A DNA stretch of 64,000 nt from Rhizobium sp. BK313 (lineage in GTDB: Bacteria; Pseudomonadota; Alphaproteobacteria; Rhizobiales; Rhizobiaceae). Made by a program: the position numbers and the translations under genes. Of this stretch, positions 2,168 to 59,110 are shown in pieces. The notes under the pieces were generated by a model, which saw nothing but the letters and a program-made list of their open reading frames with translations, searched no databases and was not told the origin of the DNA. The stretch spans positions 1,116,001 to 1,180,000 of the forward strand of contig NZ_JACHZQ010000001.1 of assembly GCF_014193655.1 (NCBI RefSeq), written 5' to 3'. Numbering within the stretch: the first letter of the stretch is position 1; each line of letters starts with the position of its first letter.

Positions 2168-5100
2168 ATGCATCTCCTCCTAGCCCAAAGGGGAACGATC
2201 AGCGATGGCGAGGAGGCGATTGATCTCGGCCAGTCGCCGGGCGATATCCTGTTCCTGTCGGCCGCGGATACCGAGCTTGCGGCGATTGCCTCTGCTTATG
2301 GGCGGGGGGAGACCGCTCGTTCGTTGCGGCTCGCGAGCCTGATGAGCCTCAAGCATCCTATGTCCGTCGACACCTACATCGAGCGGACGGCGCGGCATGC
2401 GAAGCTGATCGTCGTGCGGGCACTTGGTGGCGCCAGCTATTTTCACTATGCGCTCGAGGCACTGCATGCTTGCGCTGTTCGCAACGGCACGTTCATCGCA
2501 GTGCTGCCGGGGGATTCGAAGCCTGATCCGGGGCTCACGCCGTTTTCCAACGTTGCGCTCGAGGACCTCAATGCACTTTGGTCCTATCTGATCGAAGGCG
2601 GTGACGCCAATTCACGGGCATTTCTCGGCTATGCCGAGGCGATGCTGTCAGGAGCGGAGAAACCGGCTCCGGCGGCGCCGTTGATGAAAGCGGGAATCTG
2701 GTGGCCGGGTAGGGGCGTCATCGGCGTTGATGAGTGGAGAAGCATCTCTCTGTCGTCAACAGCAGCGGAGGAGGGATTTGTCCCCCCGACTGCCGCAATC
2801 TCTTTCTACCGCGCTCTCGTCCAAAGCGGCGAAACCAAGCCTATTGAAGCCATGATCGAGGCTCTTATTGCCGAAGGCATGCGACCTTTACCGGTGTTTG
2901 CCTATAGCCTCAAAGATTCAGTGTCAGTCGGTATTCTCGAAAGTGTTTTCGCTGAGCTGATGCCGGACGTGGTGATCAACACAACCGGCTTTGCCGTTTC
3001 GGCGCCAGGGGCTGATCGCCAGCCGACCGTATTGGAGGCGAGTGACGCCGTCGTACTGCAGGCAATCTTCTCGGCGTCCTCCAGGGAGGCTTGGGAAGCC
3101 TCATCGCAGGGGCTATCGGCGCGCGATCTCGGCATGAACGTGGCGCTGCCGGAGGTGGACGGGCGTGTGCTGGCCCGCGCTGTCTCGTTCAAGGCAGCGG
3201 CACGTTATGATGATCGCGTCGAGGCCAATATCGTTGCGAGCGAGCCGGCCGAGGACCGTATGCGTTATACCGCTCGATTGGCAGCCAATTGGACACGGTT
3301 GCGCAGAATATCGCCGCAGGACCGGCGTGTGGCGCTGGTCATGGCCAACTATCCAAACCGAGACGGACGACTCGGCAATGGCGTCGGGCTCGATACGCCG
3401 GCGGGTACGATAGAAGTACTAAAGGCGATGCAGGCGGCGGGTTATCCGGTTGCCGATATTCCCGCCGACGGCGATGCATTGATGCGTCATTTGATGGATG
3501 GGCCGACCAATTCCGGCCACGATGGCAGGATCGTTCGCGAGACGCTTTCTTTAAGCAAATACAGATATTTCTTCTCGTCTCTTCCCATCCAGATTCAGGA
3601 TGAGATCACCGCCCGTTGGGGCAATGCGGAGAGCGATCCTTATGTTCGCGACGGCGCCTTTGCCCTGCCTTTTACCCGTTTCGGCGACGTGCTGGTCGGC
3701 ATCCAGCCTGCGCGCGGCTACAATATCGATCCAAAGGAAAGCTATCATTCTCCGGACCTCGTGCCGCCGCACGGCTACCTCGCTTTCTATGCGTTCCTGC
3801 GTCAATCCTTCGGCGCGCATGCCGTCGTCCACATGGGCAAGCATGGAAATCTCGAATGGCTGCCCGGCAAGGCCCTGGCTCTTTCGGAAGCCTGTTATCC
3901 CGAAGCGATCCTTGGGCCAATGCCGCATCTCTATCCCTTTATCGTCAATGATCCCGGCGAGGGTACGCAGGCCAAGCGGCGCACGAGCGCCGTCATCATC
4001 GATCACCTGACTCCGCCTTTGACCCGCGCTGAAAGCTATGGGCCGCTCAAGGATCTCGAAGCGCTGGTAGACGAATATTACGAGGCCTCCGGCGGCGACC
4101 CTCGCCGTATCCGGCTGTTGCGCAAGCAGATCCTCGATCTGGTTGCCGACATCGGGCTCGATCAGGATGCCGGCATTGCCAAAGGCGAAGGCGAGGATGA
4201 GGCGTTGAAGAAACTCGACGCCTATCTTTGCGACCTCAAGGAAATGCAGATCCGCGACGGATTGCATGTTTTCGGCGTATCCCCATCCGGAAGGCTGCTG
4301 ACAGATTTGACGGTGGCTTTGGCGCGTGTGCCGCGGGGGTTGGGTGAGGACGGCGACCAGAGCCTGCAGCGGGCGATTGCTAGGGATGCGTTCGGACCAG
4401 AGAGAGCGGAGGGTGCGATACCCCCCTCGGTCGCTCTCGCGACATCTCCCCCACAAGGGGGGAGATCGTTAGCCCGCGGAGCCTCTTCGTATCAAGTAGA
4501 GATTGAACCCGTTGACGCTATGCGCAGCGATTTGGGAGAGCGGAGCGGCATACTCCAACCGATCTCCCCCCTTGTGGGGGAGATGTCAGCGAAGCTGACA
4601 GAGGGGGGTATTCCTCCGCAGAAGCCATTCGATCCATTGGATTGCGATATGGCGGCGGAATGGATTGGATCGCGTCCCGATATTCTCGCCGACAGGTCCG
4701 ACACTCCGTGGCGCACACAAGGCGATACCGTCGAGCGTATCGAACTTCTGGCCGCGAGGTTCGTTGCCGGCGAAATTGCCTGTCCCGAAAACTGGCCGCA
4801 AACCCTTACCGTCCTTGCCGGAATCGAATCTCGCCTCAAACCTTCGATACTCGCCTGTGGTGACGCCGAAATTGCTGCGCTTATGAAAGGCCTTGACGGC
4901 CGGTTTGTGCCGCCCGGCCCCTCCGGTGCGCCGACGCGCGGCAGGCCGGATGTTTTGCCGACGGGTCGGAATTTCTATTCCGTCGACAGCCGCGCCGTCC
5001 CGACGCCTGCGGCCTATGAGCTTGGCAAGAAGTCGGCCGAGCTTTTGATCCGCCGCTATGTGCAGGATCACGGAGAGTGGCCGGTTTCCTTCGGGCTGAC

Positions 5101-6160
5101 GGCCTGGGGCACGTCGAATATGCGCACCGGCGGTGACGATATTGCCCAGGCGCTGGCCTTGATCGGCGTCAGGCCAGTTTGGGACATGACCTCGCGGCGG
5201 GTTACCGGCTATGAGATCATCCCACCGGCTCTCCTGAACCGGCCACGGGTCGATGTTACCCTTCGCATTTCCGGCTTCTTTCGAGATGCCTTTCCGGAGC
5301 AGATCGCGCTGTTCGATAAAGCGATCCGCGCGGTCGGTGCGCTGGATGAGGATCCCGCCGATAATCCGATTGCAGCGCGTATGCGCGGCGAGGTCGAACG
5401 ATTAAAGGCTGCCGGATTGGATGAGGCTTCGGCTAACCGACGAGCCGGTTACCGCATCTTCGGTTCCAAACCCGGCGCTTACGGAGCCGGCCTGCAGGCG
5501 CTGATCGACGAAAAGGGTTGGGAGCGGCGCGCCGATTTGGCAGAAGCCTATCTCGTCTGGGGCAGCTATGCCTATGGCGCCGGCGACGAAGGTCGGGCCG
5601 AGCGTGGCGTGTTCGAGGAGCGGCTGCGTTCGATCCAGGCGGTGGTGCAGAACCAGGACAATCGGGAGCATGACCTGCTCGACAGCGACGATTACTACCA
5701 GTTCGAAGGCGGCATGGCGGCTGCGGCGGAACAGCTCGCAGGCGCGCGTCCTTCGATCTATCACAACGACCACTCCCGGCCAGAAAAACCGGTCATCCGC
5801 TCGCTGGAAGAGGAGATCGGCCGTGTGGTGCGCGGTCGCGTCGTCAATCCGAAGTGGATTGATGGTGTCATGCGCCACGGCTACAAGGGCGCCTTCGAGA
5901 TATCAGCCACGGTCGACTATCTCTTCGCCTTCGCCGCGACGACGGGTGCTGTACGCAATCACCATTTCGAGGCGGTCTATCAGGCTTTTGTCGCCAATCC
6001 GCGGGTGCGTGATTTCATGGCGGAGAAGAATCCGGCGGCTTTGCGGGAGATGAAGGAGCGTCTGTTGGAAGCGATCGATCGTCAGCTCTGGACGCCACGC
6101 AGCAATTCGGCACAATTCGATCTGAAGACGCTGGTGAGGGACAAGGAGGTCGTGGCGTGA
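2168..6160 (+). CDS. cobN: Cobaltochelatase subunit CobN
   Basis: CobN is the large subunit of the ATP-dependent aerobic cobalt chelatase that, with CobS and CobT, inserts Co(II) into hydrogenobyrinic acid a,c-diamide. At 1330 residues it is longer than the roughly 1275 usual for the family. The CobN/Mg-chelatase H blocks are clear, for example VVHMGKHGNLEWLPGKAL near residues 556-573, GYNIDPKESYHSPDLVP, and AWGTSNMRTGGDDIAQAL in the C-terminal half. The extra length is explained by residues about 751-815, which are encoded by two inverted repeat elements and read as low-complexity sequence (ISPLVGEMSAKLTEGG). The frame stays open through the insert, so the gene is probably functional. Its stop overlaps the next start by four bases. 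Confidence 0.96.
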   Translation: MHLLLAQRGTISDGEEAIDLGQSPGDILFLSAADTELAAIASAYGRGETARSLRLASLMSLKHPMSVDTYIERTARHAKLIVVRALGGASYFHYALEALHACAVRNGTFIAVLPGDSKPDPGLTPFSNVALEDLNALWSYLIEGGDANSRAFLGYAEAMLSGAEKPAPAAPLMKAGIWWPGRGVIGVDEWRSISLSSTAAEEGFVPPTAAISFYRALVQSGETKPIEAMIEALIAEGMRPLPVFAYSLKDSVSVGILESVFAELMPDVVINTTGFAVSAPGADRQPTVLEASDAVVLQAIFSASSREAWEASSQGLSARDLGMNVALPEVDGRVLARAVSFKAAARYDDRVEANIVASEPAEDRMRYTARLAANWTRLRRISPQDRRVALVMANYPNRDGRLGNGVGLDTPAGTIEVLKAMQAAGYPVADIPADGDALMRHLMDGPTNSGHDGRIVRETLSLSKYRYFFSSLPIQIQDEITARWGNAESDPYVRDGAFALPFTRFGDVLVGIQPARGYNIDPKESYHSPDLVPPHGYLAFYAFLRQSFGAHAVVHMGKHGNLEWLPGKALALSEACYPEAILGPMPHLYPFIVNDPGEGTQAKRRTSAVIIDHLTPPLTRAESYGPLKDLEALVDEYYEASGGDPRRIRLLRKQILDLVADIGLDQDAGIAKGEGEDEALKKLDAYLCDLKEMQIRDGLHVFGVSPSGRLLTDLTVALARVPRGLGEDGDQSLQRAIARDAFGPERAEGAIPPSVALATSPPQGGRSLARGASSYQVEIEPVDAMRSDLGERSGILQPISPLVGEMSAKLTEGGIPPQKPFDPLDCDMAAEWIGSRPDILADRSDTPWRTQGDTVERIELLAARFVAGEIACPENWPQTLTVLAGIESRLKPSILACGDAEIAALMKGLDGRFVPPGPSGAPTRGRPDVLPTGRNFYSVDSRAVPTPAAYELGKKSAELLIRRYVQDHGEWPVSFGLTAWGTSNMRTGGDDIAQALALIGVRPVWDMTSRRVTGYEIIPPALLNRPRVDVTLRISGFFRDAFPEQIALFDKAIRAVGALDEDPADNPIAARMRGEVERLKAAGLDEASANRRAGYRIFGSKPGAYGAGLQALIDEKGWERRADLAEAYLVWGSYAYGAGDEGRAERGVFEERLRSIQAVVQNQDNREHDLLDSDDYYQFEGGMAAAAEQLAGARPSIYHNDHSRPEKPVIRSLEEEIGRVVRGRVVNPKWIDGVMRHGYKGAFEISATVDYLFAFAATTGAVRNHHFEAVYQAFVANPRVRDFMAEKNPAALREMKERLLEAIDRQLWTPRSNSAQFDLKTLVRDKEVVA
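4418..4611. repeat. Inverted pair of rhizobial palindromic repeat elements inside cobN
   Basis: The segments 4418-4468 and 4560-4611 are near-perfect reverse complements. Each contains a CATCTCCCCCACAAGGGG-type block and a short hairpin. The hairpin is GTCGC..GCGAC in the left copy and GTCAGC..GCTGAC in the right copy, so the stem is preserved although bases differ. About 90 bp of unrelated sequence lies between. The arrangement resembles rhizobial intergenic mosaic (RIME-like) elements, but here it is translated in frame within cobN. The family name comes from memory and was not searched. Confidence 0.85.
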
Positions 6161-6756
6161 GCGTGGTCGATGCTCTTCTTCAGGTTTTTCACGGCTACGT
6201 CGCTTCGCGAAGCGATCCCGTATTGAGACGTTTCGTCGAAGGTTTCGATTGGCGGATGGCTGAGCGGCCACTTGAGCCTCATAGTCTGCCGGTCTTGGAC
6301 TATCTAAATGTGCTCCATCCACCAGTCGATGGCGCAGAGGGCGAACTGTTTTCCGGTCTCGCGGCGGCGGCGAGCGCATTGCACTGGGCGCAAACCTATA
6401 ACATCGCCGATTTTGGCGCTGATTTTCTGCAGAGATACGGTTGGGTCGAGCTTTTTGGTACGCGTGGCCACTTCGTCAGCGACGAAATGGCCGGTGGCTT
6501 CCTGATGCTCGGACCGGATGTGCACTATCCGGATCACCATCATATCGCCGAGGAAATCTATATCCCGCTGACCGATGGCTCACAGTGGAGCAAGGACAGC
6601 CAAGCCTTCCTGCCACGCTGGACGGGCGAGATCATTCATCACCCCTCGGATATTCGCCACGCGATGCGAACCGAGAGGACACCGTTGGTGGCGCTTTACC
6701 TTTGGCGAGGCGGACCGCTGGCGCAGAAATCGATAATTCCAGGGAGAGCAGTATGA
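6157..6756 (+). CDS. DddL-like cupin protein (DMSP lyase family) in the cob operon
   Basis: This 199-residue protein has a C-terminal cupin whose motifs match the dimethylsulfoniopropionate lyase (DddL-type) family. A metal-binding block YPDHHHIAEEIYIPLTDG lies near residues 127-144 and a second block HHPSDIRHAMRT with PLVALYLWRGG follows. It starts at a GTG overlapping the cobN stop (GTGA), with GGAGG at 6144-6148, and its own stop overlaps the cobO ATG, so it is translationally coupled on both sides. DMSP cleavage is the known activity of characterised relatives. In this operon a corrinoid- or ligand-related role is an equally open inference. There is no signal peptide. The fold assignment is firm; the substrate is unknown. 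Confidence 0.8.
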   Translation: MSVVDALLQVFHGYVASRSDPVLRRFVEGFDWRMAERPLEPHSLPVLDYLNVLHPPVDGAEGELFSGLAAAASALHWAQTYNIADFGADFLQRYGWVELFGTRGHFVSDEMAGGFLMLGPDVHYPDHHHIAEEIYIPLTDGSQWSKDSQAFLPRWTGEIIHHPSDIRHAMRTERTPLVALYLWRGGPLAQKSIIPGRAV

Positions 6757-7397
6757 GCGAAGAGATGGCCGAAACGGGCGCAGAAGCGCCACGGAACGAT
6801 GACGCGCGCCATGCCGACAAGATGGCCAAGAAGAAGGCCGCACGCGACAAGATCATGGCGACGAAGACGGATGAGAAGGGGCTGATCATCGTCCACACCG
6901 GCAAGGGCAAGGGCAAGTCGTCGGCCGCTTTCGGCATGATCTTTCGTCATATCGCCCACAGGAAGCCGTGCGCGGTGGTTCAGTTCATAAAGGGCGCGAT
7001 GTGGACCGGCGAGCGGGATCTGATCGAAAAGCATTTCTCCGATATCTGCCAGTTCCACACCATGGGCGAGGGGTTCACCTGGGAGACGCAGGATCGTGCC
7101 CGCGACGTGGCAGCCGCTGCTGCGGCCTGGGAGAAGGCCAAGGAGTTGATCCGCGACGAGCGAAATTCGATGGTGCTGCTCGACGAAATCAACATCGCAC
7201 TTCGCTACGATTATCTTGATATCAATGACGTTCTGACCTTCTTGCGGGAAGGGAAGCCTGTCATGACCCATGTTGTGCTGACCGGCCGCAACGCGAAGGA
7301 AGAGCTGATCGAGATCGCCGATCTCGTCACCGAAATGGAGCTGATCAAGCATCCGTTCCGCTCCGGTATCAAGGGGCAGCCGGGCGTCGAATTCTGA
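6753..7397 (+). CDS. cobO: Cob(I)yrinic acid a,c-diamide adenosyltransferase
   Basis: CobO transfers the 5'-deoxyadenosyl group of ATP to reduced corrinoid, forming the Co-C bond. The 214-residue protein has the family P-loop GKGKGKSS (residues 50-57) after a charged N-terminal tail, then VVQFIKGAMWTGERDLIE, the EGFTWETQDRARD block, VLLDEINIALRYDYLD and THVVLTGRNAKEEL, all hallmarks of CobA/CobO/BtuR enzymes. The start ATG at 6753 overlaps the preceding stop (ATGA). An open frame extends upstream, but that part lies within the DddL-like gene. It is the last gene of the riboswitch operon and is followed by palindromic repeats that may end transcription. Confidence 0.96.
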   Translation: MSEEMAETGAEAPRNDDARHADKMAKKKAARDKIMATKTDEKGLIIVHTGKGKGKSSAAFGMIFRHIAHRKPCAVVQFIKGAMWTGERDLIEKHFSDICQFHTMGEGFTWETQDRARDVAAAAAAWEKAKELIRDERNSMVLLDEINIALRYDYLDINDVLTFLREGKPVMTHVVLTGRNAKEELIEIADLVTEMELIKHPFRSGIKGQPGVEF

Positions 7398-11088: not shown

Positions 11089-11874
11089 TCAAAACCCCAG
11101 CCAGCTGCGTACAGGATTGGTCGGGTCGGCAAGCAGCTTGATGGCGAAGGCGATGCAGACGATGACCAGCAGCGGCTTGATCAGCCTCGCGCCGATGCGC
11201 ATGGCAAGCCGTGAACCGGCTTGAGCGCCGAGGAACTGACCAAGCCCCATGGTGAGGCCGACCTTCCAGAGGATGACGCCTGAGAAGATGAAGACGATCA
11301 AACCGCCGAGGTTGGAGCCGAAATTCAATAGCTTCGTATGCGCAGTCGCCTTCAGCATGCCGAAGCCGACGAGTGTGACGAAAGCGAGCATGAAGAACGA
11401 GCCCGTTCCGGGACCGAAGGCGCCATCGTAAAAGCCGATCAGCGGCACGAAGGTGAAGCCAAAGAGGGTTGCGCTCATGCGGCCGTGTTTTTCGATATCG
11501 TTGAGATTGGGCTTGAAGGCGAAATAAAGCGCTATGGCGATCAAGAGGAATGGCAGGACGATCCGCAGGACGTCACCGGGCATGATCGTCGCCAGCGTCG
11601 CGCCCAACATGCCGCCGCCGACGGCCATCAACGCCATCGGTAACTGCGTACGAAGCTGCACATGGCCCTGGCGGGCATAGGCAATGGTCGCGGAAGCCGC
11701 GCCGCAGATCGATTGCAGCTTGTTGGTGCCGAGCGTCTGCAACGGCGGGATGCCGACAAGCAGCATGGCAGGCACGGTGATCAACCCGCCGCCACCGGCA
11801 ATCGAATCAACAAAACCGGCGAAGAAGGCGGCGGCGAAGAGCAGAAGCAGCAGATGAAGGGTGATGTCTTGCAA
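11089..11874 (-). CDS. TauE/SafE-family membrane transporter
   Basis: This is an integral membrane protein of about 261 residues with roughly eight hydrophobic segments. The family N-terminus is plain (FAAAFFAGFVDSIAGGGGLI, then GTNKLQS), and a second-half GFYDGAFGPGTGSFFML block is typical of TauE/SafE permeases, which are linked to export of sulfite or organosulfur anions. The open frame runs back to 12081, but those extra residues are hydrophilic, unlike the family and overlap the cobE start region. I therefore place the start at a TTG at 11874 just before the first membrane segment. That start lacks a strong ribosome binding site and is the least certain part. The substrate is unknown. 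Confidence 0.85.
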   Translation of the reverse strand: MQDITLHLLLLLFAAAFFAGFVDSIAGGGGLITVPAMLLVGIPPLQTLGTNKLQSICGAASATIAYARQGHVQLRTQLPMALMAVGGGMLGATLATIMPGDVLRIVLPFLLIAIALYFAFKPNLNDIEKHGRMSATLFGFTFVPLIGFYDGAFGPGTGSFFMLAFVTLVGFGMLKATAHTKLLNFGSNLGGLIVFIFSGVILWKVGLTMGLGQFLGAQAGSRLAMRIGARLIKPLLVIVCIAFAIKLLADPTNPVRSWLGF

Positions 11875-12079
11875 GGCGAGAAACTCGGAGGCATGGGGTT
11901 TCGTGCGCCTTCTTGCATTCGACCGGCGCAACCGCAATTGCAGTTGAGACACAGTCGGTGAAATTGACGGGCAGGAGGATGGTTCTGTAGATGGTCGCGT
12001 GAGTGTGCTTTTGACGCGCCCTAGCATGGTGCGCGGCAACGGCAGATTCTCCTGACTTTCCCTGCGAGGCTCTTTTCCC

Positions 12080-12493
12080 ATGACGCCGTCCGATCACTCC
12101 CTTGTTTCCACCCGCCGCTATGTTCTCGGCCTGGGTTGCGAGCGCGATACAGACTGGAACGATGTGCGTCTGCTTGCTGAACGGGCTTTGCGGGAGATCG
12201 GGATAGAGGTCGATCAGGTCCTTGCGATTGCTTCGATCGATACGCGGAATAACGAACCGGCGATACTGGAGGTGGCGGCCCATCTTCGCCTGCCGCTGCT
12301 TTTTTTTGATGCTGCAACACTGGAACGTGAGACGCCGCGCTTGAAGAATCCGTCGGAACTCGTCTTCGCTCACGTCGGCTGCCACGGCGTCGCCGAAGCC
12401 GCCGCCCTGGCTGCTGCTGGACCCATCGCGGAGCTTGTTCTTCCAAAAATAAAATCCGGCTTTGCCACTGCTGCGATTGCGAAAATCGGCTGA
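12080..12493 (+). CDS. cobE: Cobalamin biosynthesis protein CobE (CbiG C-terminal type)
   Basis: This is a 137-residue protein matching the CobE / CbiG-C fold. It has a strand-glycine start YVLGLGCERDTDWNDVRLLAERAL, then AIASIDTRNNEPAILEVAA, a central LPLLFFDAATLERE, and HVGCHGVAEAAALAAAG near the end. CobE is required for aerobic cobalamin synthesis but its precise reaction is unsettled; the anaerobic relative CbiG opens the ring lactone. It lies apart from the precorrin methylase genes, which are not in this window, with a nucleoside hydrolase between it and cobA. The ribosome binding site is weak (GAGG near 12064). Confidence 0.85.
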   Translation: MTPSDHSLVSTRRYVLGLGCERDTDWNDVRLLAERALREIGIEVDQVLAIASIDTRNNEPAILEVAAHLRLPLLFFDAATLERETPRLKNPSELVFAHVGCHGVAEAAALAAAGPIAELVLPKIKSGFATAAIAKIG

Positions 12494-13700: not shown

Positions 13701-13965
13701 ACTTGTTCGCGCGACTGTCTATTTTCTAATATTATCAAATTGTTGTGCCGGCCCTCTGACAATTCGAATCAAAGAATTTGAGCGATGAAATCGTCTTTTT
13801 CCTTGCGGTCTTCGTCGCTTGGGGAAAAGCGAATAGCGCAGCGCCGCTGCCACTGAGATCCGGTCTGTCCTATCATCCCGGGATGGAGATGGGAGTCGAG
13901 CCTGGAGCCGCCTTATCCCATTCTCAAGATTGCAATTTTGGCCATCCGAGCATAGGACAGGTGGG
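13701..13965. other. Intergenic region upstream of the cobA operon
   Basis: This gap must hold the promoter of cobA-cobB-cobC-cobD. It starts AT-rich (13720-13790) and becomes GC-rich toward the gene. I looked for a second cobalamin riboswitch and found no convincing B12 box. No conserved gene is seen. Confidence 0.5.
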
Positions 13966-14814
13966 ATGAACGATACCGCATTTTCCAATCTGCCGGCCCT
14001 GGAGCCGGGCTCCGTCTGGCTCGTTGGCGCCGGGCCGGGTGATCCCGGGCTGTTGACCTTGCTCGCGGCCAAAGGATTGGCGGAGGCGGATATCATCGTG
14101 CACGATGCGCTCGTCAACGAGGATTGCCTGAAACTCGCCCATCCCGGTGCAATGCTGGAATATGCGGGCAAGCGCGGCGGTAAGCCGTCCGCCAAGCAGC
14201 GGGACATTTCGCTGCGCCTTGTCGAGCTGGCGCGTGCGGGCAAGCGTGTGTTGCGGTTGAAGGGCGGCGATCCCTTTGTCTTCGGGCGCGGCGGCGAAGA
14301 GGCGTTGATGCTGGTCGAACACGGCATTCCGTTCCGCATCGTGCCGGGCATTACCGCCGGTATCGGCGGTCTTGCTTATGCCGGCATTCCTGTCACCCAT
14401 CGCGACGTCAATCATGCCGTCACCTTCCTGACGGGCCACGATTCCTCCGGCGTTGTGCCGGACGCGATCAATTGGGAAGCGATCGGCAGGGGCTCGCCCG
14501 TCATCGTCATGTACATGGCGATGAAGCATATTGCGCAGATTAGCGCCAATCTCATCGCCGCCGGCCGTTCGGCCGACGAGCCGGTCGCTTTCGTCTGCAA
14601 TGCGGCCACGCAGGCGCAGCAGGTGTTGGAGACGACGCTGGGGCAGGCTGAGACCGATGTCGCTGCGTCCGGCCTGGAACCGCCGGCGATCGTCGTGGTC
14701 GGCGATGTCGTACGGCTGCGGCCCTCCCTCGATTGGCTGGGGGCTCTATCCGGCCGCAAGCTCCTGCCGGAGACGGAAGTGCGGGCGGGTGCCGCTCACA
14801 AGGTATCGGCATGA
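13966..14814 (+). CDS. cobA: Uroporphyrinogen-III C-methyltransferase (SUMT)
   Basis: CobA uses two SAM molecules to methylate uroporphyrinogen III at C2 and C7, giving precorrin-2, the branch into corrin and siroheme synthesis. The 282-residue protein has all SUMT signatures: VGAGPGDPGLLTLLA (about residues 22-36), VHDALV, the KRGGKPSAKQRDI block, RLKGGDPFVFGRGGEE and VPGITAGIGG. The ATG at 13966 follows AGGTGGG. An upstream in-frame TTG is possible but less likely. Its stop overlaps the cobB start (ATGA), so it leads a coupled operon. There is no CysG-type dehydrogenase domain, so precorrin-2 here probably feeds mainly cobalamin. Confidence 0.95.
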   Translation: MNDTAFSNLPALEPGSVWLVGAGPGDPGLLTLLAAKGLAEADIIVHDALVNEDCLKLAHPGAMLEYAGKRGGKPSAKQRDISLRLVELARAGKRVLRLKGGDPFVFGRGGEEALMLVEHGIPFRIVPGITAGIGGLAYAGIPVTHRDVNHAVTFLTGHDSSGVVPDAINWEAIGRGSPVIVMYMAMKHIAQISANLIAAGRSADEPVAFVCNAATQAQQVLETTLGQAETDVAASGLEPPAIVVVGDVVRLRPSLDWLGALSGRKLLPETEVRAGAAHKVSA

Positions 14815-58937: not shown

Positions 58938-59110
58938 TTGACAGGCGCTTTCCTGCAAACACGCCGGTTGCCATTGCTGTCTTTGCAGTTCATAAATTCG
59001 ATGCCCACGTCACTGGCGAAGCAAGATGGCAAACCATCGGGGAGCGTGGGTGAGATGATAAACAAGCCGCGCGCCTGGGCATCCAACTCGAGCCTTGTTG
59101 CAGGTGTACC

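Follow-up and report, generated by a model that had tools for sequence, protein, structure and literature searches.

A DddQ-like cupin encoded beside cobN or cobQ in Rhizobium and related genomes, with a possible accessory role in late corrinoid metabolism

Introduction

The marine lyase DddQ splits dimethylsulfoniopropionate (DMSP) into dimethyl sulfide and acrylate. The cupins of Pfam family PF16867 are labelled DMSP lyase-like, and the title of a 2018 paper by Lei et al. reportedly states that some enzymes of the DMSP lyase-like cupin family have no known function. For DddQ, passages of PMC4437653 give Y120, H123, H125, E129, Y131 and H163 as catalytic residues, with Y131 proposed as the catalytic base. 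Here we analyze a DddQ-like cupin gene located at positions 6157–6756 (+) of a 64,000-nucleotide stretch of the Rhizobium sp. BK313 genome (contig NZ_JACHZQ010000001.1, positions 1,116,001 to 1,180,000; hereafter the window), where it is flanked by cobN and cobO in an operon for the synthesis of cobalamin (vitamin B12). Its recurrent adjacency to cobN or cobQ, its position outside the DddQ clade and its persistence beside cobQ in genomes that have lost the B12 pathway lead us to favor, with a probability of roughly 0.4, an accessory enzyme whose substrate would be a late corrinoid bearing carboxylates, at the CobQ stage or after it.

The aerobic route to B12 is generally regarded as complete. 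A literature search, to which subscription journals were mostly inaccessible, found no paper treating a cupin as a cob gene; three articles hold both cupin and cob terms (PMC7689651, PMC2904699 and PMC12284477), and the portions available do not connect them.

Results

The cupin reads as a 199 aa protein with a GTG start and a TGA stop. The first four bases of the gene (GTGA, 6157–6160) overlap cobN and include its stop codon, the last four (ATGA, 6753–6756) overlap cobO and include its start codon, and a Shine-Dalgarno-like AAGGAGG within cobN (6143–6149, +) precedes the start codon by 7 bases. The operon is ordered riboswitch, cobU-cobW-cobN-cupin-cobO, with the cobalamin riboswitch at its head (36–433, +; Rfam RF00174, 49.2 bits, gathering threshold 31.5). 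The arrangement described in the sequence-only reading, a cupin overlapping both neighbors by four bases in a riboswitch-led cob operon, is thereby confirmed.

A scan of named genomes, which detects close relatives only, returned 29 cupin loci, 28 of them arranged as cobN-cupin-cobO (Rhizobium tropici, R. rhizogenes, R. lusitanum, R. leucaenae and relatives) and one with the cupin directly 5' of cobQ. The family survey (394 genomes) yielded 56 places above 142 bits, in 55 genomes; below that score came a contig-end piece in genome G717 at 89 bits, followed by all others at 80 bits or less. We fetched 56 places, of at most 15 kb each, comprising every place above 142 bits except the window's own, plus G717. 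The cupin lies directly 5' of cobQ, on the same strand, in 42 of these 56 places, two of which are opposite ends of one G678 contig carrying a single sequence. In ten more it lies directly 3' of cobN, with cobO behind it in eight and a contig end in two. The remaining four are G542 and G521, in which cobQ is elsewhere, one place cut by a contig end, and locus L145, without a cob neighbor. Between the surveys, L091, L092, L093 and L105 duplicate L042, L049, L054 and L058, and L109 repeats L108. In a class-wide sample of 385 genomes the nearest relative was found in G979 (188 bits, 40% identity), all others scoring 116 bits or less, and a search of viral contigs with a Mesorhizobium protein found no relative. 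Selenocysteine was considered for the in-frame TGA seen in G749, G523, G718, G636 and G687 and rejected, as each TGA is an ordinary stop that the match overran.

The cupin touches cobN or cobQ in 52/56 fetched places, across lineages, and its placement in cob operons is a lineage trait, not local chance. A gene found mostly outside cob operons, which the sequence-only reading had listed as evidence against itself, is the opposite of this distribution.

CobN was sought in 50 of the 56 cupin genomes (the 55 plus G717) and in 30 cupin-free genomes; the other samples comprised 27 genomes for CobH, 51 for CobQ, 18 each for CobO and CobD, 20 each for CobS and B12-binding proteins, and 24 for PduO. 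Among the 50 cupin genomes five gave no CobN match and G519 only weak ones, leaving six without CobN; G248 and G522 were counted as positive on sub-cut-off but strong CobN pieces on broken contigs. CobH, CobO, CobD and CobS, in the samples given above, were not found in any of the six, nor was CobS in the fragmentary genomes G634, G518 and G717. All six nonetheless hold cobQ above cut-off, B12-binding proteins and a PduO-type adenosyltransferase. Missing data are improbable for G427, G633 and G678, since these three consist of 1 to 5 contigs and are 99–100% complete. The six come from genera g169, g170 and g172, and because G424 of g169 keeps CobN, CobH, CobO, CobD and CobS, more than one loss of the pathway is likely.

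Both genes are under purifying selection in the non-producer pairs compared, cobQ less strictly than in producers. Three non-producer pairs, drawn from five of the six genomes (G425 was left out), gave a ratio of nonsynonymous to synonymous substitution rates (dN/dS) of 0.13–0.21 for the cupin, inside the 0.07–0.35 of six CobN-bearing pairs; for cobQ the corresponding values were 0.12–0.15 and 0.025–0.073. Part of the non-producer divergence may predate the loss of the pathway.

CobQ was present in all 21 cupin genomes tested and is the only tested cob function that always accompanies the cupin; B12-binding proteins (20/20 genomes) and the PduO adenosyltransferase (24/24) are equally regular without it. 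Cupin-free genomes carry CobN over cut-off in 25/30 cases and cobQ in 25/29, and since so many of them have cobQ the role of the cupin would be accessory; the B12 pathway as such does not require it. Retention of cobQ in non-producers was 6/6 with the cupin against 1/5 without (Fisher p = 0.015), a value that we do not rely on, the genomes being related, cupin and cobQ being neighbors, and the sole exception having cobQ at the same locus. In G420 (L232), where CobH, CobO, CobD and CobS were not found, the reading frame of cobQ is open. At G523:C1:2628428-2629860 the cobQ match is split into two parts read in different frames, which either a frameshift or an error in sequencing would explain.

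Four general roles were dropped on these grounds, as the non-producers keep the cupin: cobalt delivery to CobN, a step of ring synthesis (CobH), partnership with CobO, and lower-ligand assembly (CobD, CobS). What is left is the CobQ step, a nearby corrinoid or the finished cofactor. A cobalt chaperone or store feeding CobN, alongside the operon neighbor CobW, would suit the predicted metal site of the cupin and its position flanked by cobN and cobO, both in the window and at 28/29 named-genome loci; we hold it to be highly improbable, given that 42/56 places have cobQ instead and that the six genomes without CobN show that the cupin is not confined to CobN bearers.

The cupin matches a single Pfam family, PF16867 (DMSP_lyase), at 101.7 bits where the cut-off is 27; the host genome holds one copy of that family, and no NCBIfam model matched the cupin. 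Its closest solved relatives are DddQ proteins, which replaces the "DddL-like" label first attached to it, DddL lying outside the comparison, and its predicted fold is a DddQ-type barrel with N-terminal helices as in 4la2. The equivalents of the six DddQ catalytic residues, in the order given above, are Y124, H127, H129, E133 and Y135 (codons within 6526–6561, +) and H168 (6658–6660, +). All six are identical in 79/79 distinct cupin sequences (82 alignment rows, with L105, L109, L136 and L146 omitted), and the first five also in the compared stretches of three DddQ structures. As to the metal ligands, whose inspection had been proposed beforehand, the predicted fold and the conservation of H129, E133 and H168 agree with a DddQ-type site, and metal binding itself would follow by analogy.

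This retention of all six catalytic residues is what a true DMSP lyase, or a related sulfonium or thioether propionate lyase, merely travelling in cob operons would display. DddQ being the closest solved relative points the same way, as does the tree, in which the cob-linked cupins and the DddQ clade are together set apart from other PF16867 members (support 100/100). Within that grouping, however, the three solved DddQs and six class hits separate as one clade (100/99, branch 0.98) with no cob-linked member, so that the tight clustering with proven DMSP lyases envisaged by the sequence-only reading as contrary evidence is not seen. Six positions that are at least 98% conserved in the cob-linked set, including G114 and W144, differ from all three DddQs (positions 7 and 186 were not counted, as the DddQ stretches end there), and a travelling lyase leaves the two separate cob placements without a reason. 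We regard it as unlikely. Thirty other PF16867 loci retrieved from the order score only 39–82 bits against the cob-linked profile and fall outside the cob-linked clade (96/93). Further PF16867 proteins, scoring as high as 202 bits and also outside that clade, occur in genomes of the window's own genus (L002, L006, L007 and L011).

Cupins often act as sensors, and some database records name this one a transcriptional regulator, which would accord with a non-catalytic binding protein sensing corrinoid or metal. The full catalytic set is invariant and no DNA-binding domain is among the Pfam matches of the cupin, and we consider such a regulator very unlikely.

The junctions of the cupin were measured on a set that omits L105, L136, L144, L145, L146 and L138 and includes 31 Rhizobium-type loci, three of them repeats. 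In 27 of the 28 distinct Rhizobium-type loci the TGA over the cupin start ends the upstream frame, and 26 of the 28 retain the ATGA overlap with cobO. At the g151 and g178 junctions the next ATG instead follows after 9 to 26 bases (six loci measured). At the cobQ-type loci (40 measured), the nearest cobQ start lies −4 to 14 bases beyond the cupin stop, the two genes overlapping in 15 cases. The cupin tree places the Rhizobium cobN-cupin-cobO group (100/100) and a g151, g178 and g191 group (83/99) on separate branches, so the cobN-cobO slot would be either ancestral or entered twice. Either two insertions or the movement of one gene would account for the two placements.

At the other slot, in G412, G411, G434 and G420, a divergent acyl-CoA dehydrogenase gene adjoins cobQ so closely that the cupin would not fit, which marks the cupin of the cupin-cobQ loci as an extra gene at the head of the cobQ unit. 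More broadly, whether or not the cupin is present, cobQ is found divergent to a pair of genes for acyl-CoA dehydrogenase and 3-hydroxyisobutyrate dehydrogenase, a lasting neighborhood (L187, L198, L212, L232 and the cupin-cobQ loci). The partner of the cupin might be this dehydrogenase pair, cobQ being a bystander; in valine breakdown the cupin would then cleave the adducts that thiols form with methacrylate or acrylate. The pair flanks 42/56 places, G542 and G521 have the cupin at the pair without an adjoining cobQ, and the thiol adducts would, by our own reasoning, resemble DMSP. Nevertheless, the Rhizobium-type and g151/g178 cupins occupy the cobN-cobO slot without the pair, and the pair adjoins cobQ without the cupin in the four genomes just named; we judge a role in valine breakdown distinctly unlikely.

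The cobalamin riboswitch recurs at all six cobN-type loci searched besides the window; it was found at none of the nine cupin-cobQ loci searched, nor at L127, L128 or L145. B12 control of the cupin, invoked in the sequence-only reading as part of a B12-controlled sulfonium metabolism, is compatible with the window and the six cobN-type loci, is not compatible with the cupin-cobQ loci searched, and so is not a general trait.

The remaining genes of the window operon, all on the forward strand, are cobU, encoding a CobP-type kinase/guanylyltransferase (576–1103; PF02283, 205.8 bits; NF004469, 218.4 bits), cobW (1100–2158; TIGR02475, 565.3 bits), cobN for the cobaltochelatase large subunit (2168–6160; TIGR02257, 1736.8 bits) and cobO for the corrinoid adenosyltransferase (6753–7397; PF02572, 209.8 bits; NF004637, 282 bits). 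A cobQ gene lies on the same strand about 2 kb ahead of the window. Farther along, a TauE/SafE exporter gene (11092–12081, −) adjoins a CobE-like CbiG_C gene (12080–12490, +), which is followed at some distance by a cobA-like tetrapyrrole methylase gene (13930–14811, +); a TauE-like gene, named by eye, is also a frequent neighbor at cupin-cobQ loci. The window further contains a ZMP/ZTP riboswitch (58999–59087, +; RF01750, 59 bits).

Discussion

The sequence-only reading had left the cupin between a step or a metal- or corrinoid-handling role in cobalamin synthesis and a role in sulfonium metabolism. Adjacency to cob genes in 52/56 places and the position outside the DddQ clade favor the corrinoid side, and the six genomes without CobN weaken metal handling. 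A late, carboxylate-bearing corrinoid is suggested as substrate because the chemistry of the fold points to a carboxylate bound by a metal and to a tyrosine serving as base. In such a mechanism H129, E133 and H168 would ligate a divalent metal, to which the corrinoid would bind through a side-chain carboxylate, and Y135, by analogy with its DddQ counterpart, would act as the base at the carbon neighboring the carboxylate. Several carboxylates are still free in the corrinoids that precede CobQ, and hydrolysed cobalamins have at least one. The cupin may accordingly help to salvage or repair corrinoids that are damaged or not fully amidated, a role under which non-producers would keep it together with CobQ.

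A number of observations count against an accessory enzyme of late corrinoids. Relatives without cob neighbors exist, in L145 (42% identity) and in G979, where cobU, cobW, cobN, cobO and cobQ were not found within 15 kb. The cupin stands apart from cobQ in G542 and G521, in which the pathway genes tested are present. G420, where neither the pathway genes tested nor the cupin were found, retains cobQ next to the acyl-CoA dehydrogenase gene, as at the cupin-cobQ loci, so that cobQ may persist there for a reason of its own, and constraint on cobQ is laxer in non-producers. The catalytic residues would fit a DMSP lyase equally well, and that a DddQ-sized pocket admits a corrin side chain is an assumption of the corrinoid proposal.

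A more specific version of this proposal, which we advance as rather unlikely, makes the cupin and CobQ a corrinoid repair pair. The cupin would fix a damaged or misconfigured side chain by proton abstraction beside a metal-bound carboxylate and CobQ would re-amidate it, non-producers keeping the pair to mend scavenged vitamin, with DddQ a sister branch of the same stock.

If an accessory role in corrinoid metabolism is correct, a cupin found in two cob operons and kept with cobQ after loss of the pathway represents an overlooked late function, and the cupin-cobQ unit offers a testable case of corrinoid salvage or repair. Names such as 'dimethylsulfonioproprionate lyase family protein' may in turn overcount producers of dimethyl sulfide among soil bacteria, and the cob-linked cupin provides a close relative for studying the origin of DddQ.

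Among known systems, the SbzM cupin dioxygenase of the altemicidin/SB-203208 pathway, as portrayed in passages of PMC6331615, is likewise a metal-dependent cupin within a biosynthetic cluster; it differs in chemistry and context, and the likeness drawn here is one of description. The DMSP lyase cupins DddK, DddY and DddW share with the window cupin the cupin barrel and the HxH...E...H motif, and the 'DMSP lyase-like' cupins of PF16867 include it as a family member. DddQ (PDB 4la2, 4la3, 5jso, 4b29 and 5cu1) comes closest, sharing the predicted fold and the six catalytic residues; the three DddQs tested differ from the cupin in forming a separate clade and at six conserved positions, and the cupin, for its part, sits in cob operons.
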